The notes below the pieces were generated by a model. That model made no database searches and was not told the DNA's origin. It saw nothing but the letters and a program-made list of their open reading frames with translations. A DNA stretch of 64,000 nt from Planctomycetota bacterium (GTDB lineage Bacteria; Planctomycetota; J058), in the NCBI GenBank assembly GCA_023954375.1, contig JAMLIC010000001.1, positions 372,001 through 436,000 of the forward strand, in the 5' to 3' direction. Shown here one piece after another: positions 57,790 through 58,761 of the stretch; within the stretch, counting starts at the first letter, position 1; each line of letters opens with the position of its first letter. The translations under genes and the position numbers were made by a program.

Positions 57790-58761
57790 ATGGAGCGGTT
57801 CGCCGGGCTCCCGGGCCACGACCTCGTCCGCGACGGCCTGGCCGACCTCGCGCGCCGCGAGGAGACGGTCGCCGCGCTGCTCGTCTCGATCGGCGCGCCC
57901 CGCCTGCGGGGGGTCGGGATCGACGTGCCGGCGCCGCTCGCCGATCCGGAGCGGCGGCTCTACCTGCTCCTGGCGCGCGAGGACCAGGACCCGGCGCACG
58001 GCCGCTACAACGCCCTCGTGCGGCGACTGATCAGCTTCGAGCAGGCGGCCGAGTGCGCGAGCTGGAGGCCCGGCCGCAAAGGGCCTGGCGAGGCGCGAGG
58101 AGCGACGCGAACTGGGTCGTTCGCTAGCGACGAGCAACGAAGTCGCAGGAGGTTCCGAAGGAACCTCCTGCGAAACAAGGCAGGCAGCGAAGCTGCCTGC
58201 CGCAGTTCCAGGCCCTTTGCGGCCGGGCCTCTAGCCGACGCCGGGCGGGTGCGCGCGTTCCTGCGGGAGCTCGGCGCCGCGCAGGGCGAGCTGACGCGCG
58301 TCTACCTCACCGGCGGGGCGACGGCCGTGCTGGTCGGCTGGCGCGCGAGCACCGTCGACGTCGACCTCGTGTTCGCGCCCGACCGCGACGCGCTCCTGCG
58401 CGCCCTGCCGCGCCTCAAGGAGCGCCTGCAGCTCAACGTCGAGCTCGCCTCGCCCGCGCACTTCATTCCGGAGCTCCCGGGCTGGGAGGCGCGGAGCCTG
58501 TTCGTCGGCCGCGAGGGCGCGCTCGAGGTCTACCACTATGACCCCTACGCGCAGGCGCTGGCGAAGGTCGAGCGCGGCCACGCCAGGGACCACGACGACG
58601 TCCGCGAGCTCGTCGCGCGCGGCCTGGTCGACCCGGCGCGGGCGCGGGCGCTCTTCCTCCAGATCGAGCCGCAGCTCTACCGCTACCCCGCCCTCGACCC
58701 GCGGAGCTTCCGGGCGAAGGTCGAGGCGGCGTTCGGGCCGCTGGAGGCCGGGCCAGGGTGA
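57790..58761 (+). CDS. Small conserved protein + DUF6036-like nucleotidyltransferase, joined through a hairpin element
   Basis: 323 residues as one frame, but probably two genes. Residues 1-~90 (RFAGLPGHDLVRDGLADLA, RLYLLLAREDQDPAHGRYNA) look like a complete small protein. Residues ~91-150 are Arg/Ser-rich and encoded by a 175-bp inverted-repeat element (58061-58235). From about 154 (possible GTG start 58249) comes a nucleotidyltransferase-like domain: VYLTGGATAVLVGWR then VDVDLVFAP, the GG...DxD pattern of DUF6036/AbiEii-type enzymes. Such proteins are toxin or defence components; the small upstream protein would be the natural antitoxin candidate. Toxicity is an inference. The element has either fused the two genes or lies between them. 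Confidence 0.7.
   Translation: MERFAGLPGHDLVRDGLADLARREETVAALLVSIGAPRLRGVGIDVPAPLADPERRLYLLLAREDQDPAHGRYNALVRRLISFEQAAECASWRPGRKGPGEARGATRTGSFASDEQRSRRRFRRNLLRNKAGSEAACRSSRPFAAGPLADAGRVRAFLRELGAAQGELTRVYLTGGATAVLVGWRASTVDVDLVFAPDRDALLRALPRLKERLQLNVELASPAHFIPELPGWEARSLFVGREGALEVYHYDPYAQALAKVERGHARDHDDVRELVARGLVDPARARALFLQIEPQLYRYPALDPRSFRAKVEAAFGPLEAGPG
58061..58235. repeat. 175-bp nested-hairpin element with GAA triloops
   Basis: The outer arms 58065-58088 and 58208-58231 are a perfect 24-bp inverted repeat, extending to 28 bp (58061-58235) with one G-T. Inside are a 10-bp palindrome tcgctagcga (58121-58130), a 14-bp stem at 58143-58156/58160-58173 with loop GAA, and a 10-bp stem at 58179-58188/58192-58201, also with loop GAA. 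It sits exactly where the two protein domains of the surrounding frame meet. No protein is encoded, and no flanking direct duplication was recognised. Confidence 0.85.

Follow-up and report, generated by a model that had tools for sequence, protein, structure and literature searches.

A probable MITE-like palindromic repeat in a Planctomycetota genome, with a putatively structured core common to repeats of about ten bacterial phyla

The window analyzed here is a stretch of 64,000 nucleotides from a Planctomycetota genome (10.1 Mb in 115 contigs, completeness 90, contamination 6), toward the end of which a single open reading frame, 57790-58761, passes without a stop through a palindromic element. 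An N-terminal domain lies before this element and a nucleotidyltransferase domain after it (PF19502, E 1.1e-6, residues 156-288 of the ORF), as the first-pass annotation had placed them, and a Pfam search of five neighboring ORFs returned no mobile-element gene. The features of the locus are as follows.

57790..58761, + strand: 323-aa ORF with an N-terminal domain of unknown function, a linker encoded by the element and a DUF6036 nucleotidyltransferase domain
58053..58055, + strand: GTG that was probably the original start codon of the DUF6036 gene, severed from it by the insertion, judging from relative L054
58062..58065, no strand: left target copy CTGG, presumably CTAG beforehand, with the TAG stop probably changed to TGG
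58066..58230, + strand: repeat unit, AGGCCC...GGGCCT, 165 bp, from the sequence and comparison of copies
58066..58088, no strand: left arm (terminal inverted repeat), from arm complementarity and copies
58208..58230, no strand: right arm (terminal inverted repeat), from arm complementarity and copies
58084..58152, + strand: match of covariance model R1 to the core, 53.0 bits, from a model search
58092..58139, + strand: core GGCGCGAGGAG-hairpin-CGACGAGCAACG, in which stacked G.A pairs are predicted, from core comparison and covariation
58143..58173, + strand: 14-bp hairpin with GAA loop, a subfamily decoration, from a stem search
58179..58201, + strand: 10-bp hairpin with GAA loop, a subfamily decoration, from a stem search
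58231..58234, no strand: right target copy CTAG, from the sequence

The nested inverted repeat with GAA-loop hairpins reported by the first-pass annotation is indeed present. Its outer arms (58061-58088 and 58208-58235) are 96% complementary over 28 nt, with one mismatch and 24 consecutive perfect base pairs, and between them lie two perfect inner stems of 14 bp (58143-58156/58160-58173) and 10 bp (58179-58188/58192-58201), each interrupted by a 3-nt gap that reads GAA. Folded as DNA, 58040-58260 reaches -95.7 kcal/mol, compared with -56.5 +/- 3.6 for 200 shuffles (z = -11, with no shuffle as good); as RNA, the palindrome is again far beyond shuffled sequence (z = -12.6), and the complementary strand likewise folds far better than its own shuffles. 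Strong folding of both strands is a property of any palindrome. While the palindrome stands where it had been placed, its extent shrinks to 58066-58230 once the target copies are set aside by comparison with other copies, leaving a unit with 23-bp arms that are identical in inverted order. This unit is short and carries no transposase, as is typical of MITEs. The GAA triloops noted by the first-pass annotation occur in all three full copies that this genome contains but are not the widely conserved part: the portion that recurs in other phyla is the G.A-rich core (58092-58139), and the GAA hairpins are local decoration.

Comparison with relatives indicates what the locus may have looked like before the insertion. 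Homologues of the window ORF were compared at 11 loci, and the linker is found at none. At five of these (L053, L054, L055, L056, L060) the two parts adjoin or overlap, each in its own frame, at two (L057, L058) they occur in reversed order, and the other four, including that of the nearest relative, G001, have a single part. There, the first part is 89% identical and is followed by unrelated sequence, so that this genome offers no clean empty site. At L054, the upstream frame ends GCG AGT TAG while the downstream gene reads ATG CGC GAG TTA GCC (GAC GC), and the window fits GTG CGC GAG C-TAG-CC, CTAG being where the element sits. In net terms 169 nt have been gained; TGG stands in place of the left TAG, and the ORF continues past it. 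The earlier statement that the element stays in frame thus holds insofar as the ORF is open throughout, but this is a secondary effect of the 169-nt net gain and the TAG that reads TGG; the statement that it encodes nothing has to be given up, since the ORF reading yields a predicted linker of about 56 residues. Among 14 aligned protein homologues, taken from 120 matches listed of 1395 found, 12 have both domains without the 56-residue linker, one (P0002) consists of the second domain only, and one (P0023) carries another insertion at the junction. This last insertion, seen in the protein, is unrelated, spans about 50 residues and falls exactly where the window element sits. A linker conserved among relatives, which would have spoken against a mobile repeat, is therefore not seen at these loci or in these two-domain homologues.

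A search of the genome returned two further full copies, at C36:22001-22170 (96% identity) and C40:61711-61880 (94% identity), for a total of three, and the remaining seven matches were self-matches of arms or hairpins plus two short pieces. The suggestion of a dispersed, REP- or MITE-like repeat is borne out by these copies, which also dispose of the objection that the palindrome might be the only one in the genome. A fourth, diverged core, at C29:49399, has like ends, and the sister genome of the same genus (G001) has at least five core matches, one of them with window-type ends; the C29 locus (L256) and one in the sister genome (L259) represent a second core subfamily, with ends AGGCCCGGCCGGAGA as in the window element. 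The target copies are never a perfect pair, reading CTGG/CTAG in the window, CCAG/CTAG at C36 and CTAG/CGCG at C40, with one side always CTAG. Between copies the arms change together, with GCAAAG on both arms in the window and GGAGAG on both at C40. The C36 copy has one hairpin loop altered from GAA and is apparently intergenic, judged by the ORF list only. A very short hairpin element similar to the type at L188 and L191 adjoins it at CTAG; this second kind of element, with ends TAGTGGTCYGTCAGG, occurs in this genome at L188, at L191 and in the flank of L002. Another locus (L006, C27:115471) has GAGGCCC...GGGCCTC ends with the first core half only and looks decayed.

The C40 copy is found in a dnaB gene with two intein splicing regions (L185:2340-7013), in frame within the first intein, whose C-terminal splice motif is still present. 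The element residues are absent in all 11 aligned dnaB homologues, which were taken from 120 matches listed of 1980 found and of which the nearest has 79% identity over the searched region. Open frames through the element in both the window ORF and dnaB, and the unrelated stretch of about 50 residues that P0023 has at this junction, could be read as signs that the insertion was kept for the protein, as a useful linker between two domains. We consider this highly improbable, as 12 of the 14 aligned homologues do without the linker and the third copy apparently sits in a gap between genes (again by the ORF list only). Dispersed copies and empty sites, as expected of a MITE, are both found here, in the form of three full copies and of window-gene, protein and dnaB homologues without the element.

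Positions 58092-58139 also match other repeats in the family, and the conserved part proves to be a core of the form GCGASGAG-hairpin-CGASGAGC, predicted to stack G.A pairs. When one genome per species was scanned with a degenerate core pattern, at least 119 stretches were found, and the carriers, by record name, include Acidobacteria, Proteobacteria, Elusimicrobia, Actinobacteria, Gemmatimonadota, Myxococcales, Bacteroidetes orders, Verrucomicrobia, Planctomycetota and Omnitrophota. In all, the core is common to hundreds of repeats from about 10 bacterial phyla, a figure that reflects our own grouping of record names. Because the search pattern required the invariant letters, their invariance is no evidence of conservation; the evidence lies in the swapping of the S-S pair between them. 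In 92 distinct cores this pair is G/C in 68, C/G in 21 and unpaired in 3, such that 89 pair even though S was free in the pattern. Beside it, GA faces GA in what are predicted to be sheared G.A pairs, arranged as GC-GA-S-GA-G / C-GA-S-GA-GC. In an alignment of 81 cores, 84.9% of cells are paired, compared with 59.3% in shuffled and 26.6-39.2% in slid controls, and covariation is 0.601 versus 0.174 in controls; the number of pairs changed on both sides, 17, was reached by 416 of 500 shuffles and so is not in excess of them. This alignment omits 11 of the 92 cores, including two of the three with unpaired S positions, and therefore slightly flatters the S-S pair, for which the count over all 92 (68/21/3) is the proper measure.

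In the two stems G.T outnumbers A.C by 100 to 28 (our own sum), as would be expected if the folding strand is the one with the G.A letters. A point against the proposed fold is that P1 of the alignment also contains many G.A cells (78, again our sum). A set of full-length elements, 18 of 21 being used in the alignment, folds into a single rod in which a second loop is conserved, with double changes in 30 of 45 pairs, G.T over A.C at 76 to 15, and one G.T pair kept in all 18. The core could accordingly be a structured RNA, in which the transcribed G.A strand folds and acts as an mRNA stability element, a protein landing site or a small RNA, and transposition only spreads it. The G.T excess, the G.T pair kept in 18/18 elements and the preference of RNA folding energy for the G.A strand in 70 of 81 cores all agree with such a role, which we regard as a serious possibility though probably not the answer: DNA parameters prefer the identical strand in the same 70 cores, the orientation of 60 elements relative to flanking genes shows no clear bias with a crude gene caller (20 with both neighbors on the core strand, 12 with both opposite, 15 divergent and 13 convergent), and Rfam 15 gave no match to any core above threshold, its tRNA and Acido-Lenti-1 matches lying elsewhere in the loci. 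On the form that folds, then, the G.T excess and the fully kept G.T pair lean to RNA while the unbiased orientation leans to DNA. Two of the Acido-Lenti-1 matches stand in inverted order inside another palindromic stretch (L130:3769-3946); we considered whether this RNA was part of the adjacent L130 element and rejected it as a separate repeat.

A core without any function, whose complementarity is kept by template switching or gene conversion between the arms and whose wide spread reflects age and transfer, would also have arms that vary in step, as they do in the three copies. Core elements form tandem arrays in one Longimicrobiales chromosome (G059, for example at 3738533-3739287) with periods of 171 and 249 bp, which would suit this explanation too. 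Nevertheless, it seems unlikely, since under such repair the G.A internal loops would tend to become fully paired, yet S-S swaps are seen between loops that stay G.A, across about 10 phyla and with differing ends. The covariation instead supports a core that may have been kept as structure while the surrounding ends differ between families.

The spread of the core was assessed with covariance model R1, which finds it in 20 of 58 relatives (the genome of the window included) and in 31 of 31 genomes chosen as pattern carriers, with at least 1 to at least 91 matches each. These per-genome counts are lower bounds, as 85 candidates per genome were scored in relatives and 150 in carriers; they amount to at least 20, 37 and 34 cores in G002, G004 and G033, respectively. 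Among the matches listed, ends vary by family and mostly stand beside TA, including CTAG-TGTCC, TTA-GGGCC, TAA-GAGCC, CTA-GCCCGCAT and others, suggesting that the core is kept while the mobilizing ends change. An outer arm was found for 75 of the 92 cores, although some of these are chance arms far from the core. Filtering by score, length, edge and TA left 43 elements with clear ends, 24 of which adjoin the stop codon of an ORF (crudely, any open frame of 60 codons or more on either strand), compared with 317 of 1610 YTAR sites alone; as two ends give about 36% by chance (our own arithmetic), the excess is moderate. Eleven further elements lie inside genes called by the crude gene caller. No clear bias relative to replication was seen in G059 (permutation test 15/200; noisy GC skew of 20 samples). 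In Candidatus Thiodiazotropha endolucinida (G058; L218-L247), there are 60 exact copies of a 17-mer end, TTAGGGCCTGTTAACAC, many of them lone ends beside genes. Searched at full length against phage and plasmid collections, the element gave no match, and the core pattern occurs among viral sequences in two stretches of one viral contig.

Searches of carriers for PF01609, PF13358 and PF13701 returned no transposase with the ends of the window element and one partial end match, which concerns a different core family. MITEs are recognized by ends that they share with an autonomous element; no such element is seen for the window terminal inverted repeat in this incomplete genome, and the missing partner lowers the case for MITE membership without excluding it. 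The core is present at 0 of 40 transposase loci. The partial match is an IS1380-family IS in G014 (L283:895-2636), with TA-flanked ends GCCCGCATTTCTCA like those of the L130 (Lysobacterales) core element; its ends are unlike those of the window element, the IS lacks the core, and the IS1380 locus of L130's own genome has no such ends. An IS630-type locus (L309, G005) was rejected as a partner, as it has only GTGGTCC in common with the ends of local elements. PF01609 searches of G002, G004 and G033, all incomplete, gave no match, and in Candidatus Thiodiazotropha, where 30 loci were scanned for the core, inspection by eye of the largest ORFs at 13 recognized no transposase.

A short repeat, GTCATTGCGAGGAGCGNNAGCGACGAAGCAATC, occurs in 8 plasmid records and, in degenerate form, in 14 viral stretches. 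Its predicted fold has the same GA-S-GA / GA-S-GA arrangement, but it is only about 34 nt long, without long end repeats, and R1 does not detect it (best E 0.13), so that this predicted likeness does not establish common ancestry. Y1 (RAYT/IS200-like) transposases bind strand-specific hairpins with mismatches. The strand-specific, mismatched hairpin of the core resembles the substrates of such enzymes, and the short repeat is an example of the same predicted arrangement, as would be expected if the element were REP-type and moved as single-stranded DNA by a hairpin-recognizing Y1 transposase. We judge this quite improbable, given that the CTAG, TTA and TAA target copies, together with the length of the terminal inverted repeats, speak for a mechanism of the DDE type.

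Several known systems are similar in part. Bacterial MITEs are short and non-coding, have terminal inverted repeats and target copies, occur in many copies that are mostly intergenic, and are moved in trans (PMC10969869); they are usually defined by ends shared with one parent IS, whereas the window element has an interior core that is common across phyla and ends. Rickettsia palindromic elements (RPE) are likewise palindromes in frame inside protein genes, known from Rickettsia (PMC3767692), whereas here there are two in-frame cases in one genome together with cross-phylum relatives, and the likeness is that of in-frame insertion. GTAG/CGTC REPs resemble the element as small palindromes of many phyla that lie near gene ends and sometimes inside genes, and for the CGTC type no transposase is known (PMC3733652). 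CGTC REPs are defined there by a CGTC tag, an 8-9 bp stem starting AT, a 4-5 nt loop and a CCA tail, and we rejected this assignment for our element, which has neither the tag with an AT-starting stem of 8-9 bp nor the tail, in a unit of 165 bp with long end repeats. The element has some MITE features (short length, end repeats, copies) and shares in-frame insertion with RPE, with imperfect target copies and no autonomous partner seen. A literature search over titles and abstract openings found no description of the core, although this is weak evidence of absence, as few subscription papers were covered.

We favor, with a probability of about 0.6, a non-autonomous MITE-like palindromic repeat that was likely inserted at CTAG by a transposase encoded elsewhere and that has a conserved core predicted to function in folded, single-stranded form. 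A DDE transposase with TA or CTAG as its target would recognize the terminal inverted repeats in trans. Insertion at a gene's stop codon may cost the host little, a step to which the stop-codon excess lends partial support: CTAG contains TAG, and an insertion there would leave a stop at both ends. In the window, the apparent change of the left TAG to TGG and the net gain of 169 nt would have fused two overlapping frames into the predicted 323-residue ORF. One core strand would then fold into a helix with stacked G.A pairs, GC-GA-S-GA-G / C-GA-S-GA-GC, and this fold might serve as a signal to a host factor or at the time of replication, helping the element to persist whichever transposase moves it. 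A bolder version, conceivable but doubtful, is that the double tandem-G.A hairpin is itself the mobile module, captured by many unrelated transposon ends in at least 10 phyla and reaching dozens of copies per genome, because its fold would recruit some host factor that bacteria have in common; in that case, short REP-like GCGAGGAG...CGACGA repeats would represent this module free of transposon ends.

In conclusion, the usual account of MITEs invokes their ends and a parent transposase, whereas the part conserved here across phyla, and across differing ends, is the middle, where covariation points to selection on structure. The genome of the window also provides two clear instances in which a palindrome has come to form part of a predicted protein, one of them in an intein of the replicative helicase. 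The family may thus offer a testable case of an interior fold that helps selfish DNA to persist, along with a covariance model for finding such elements.
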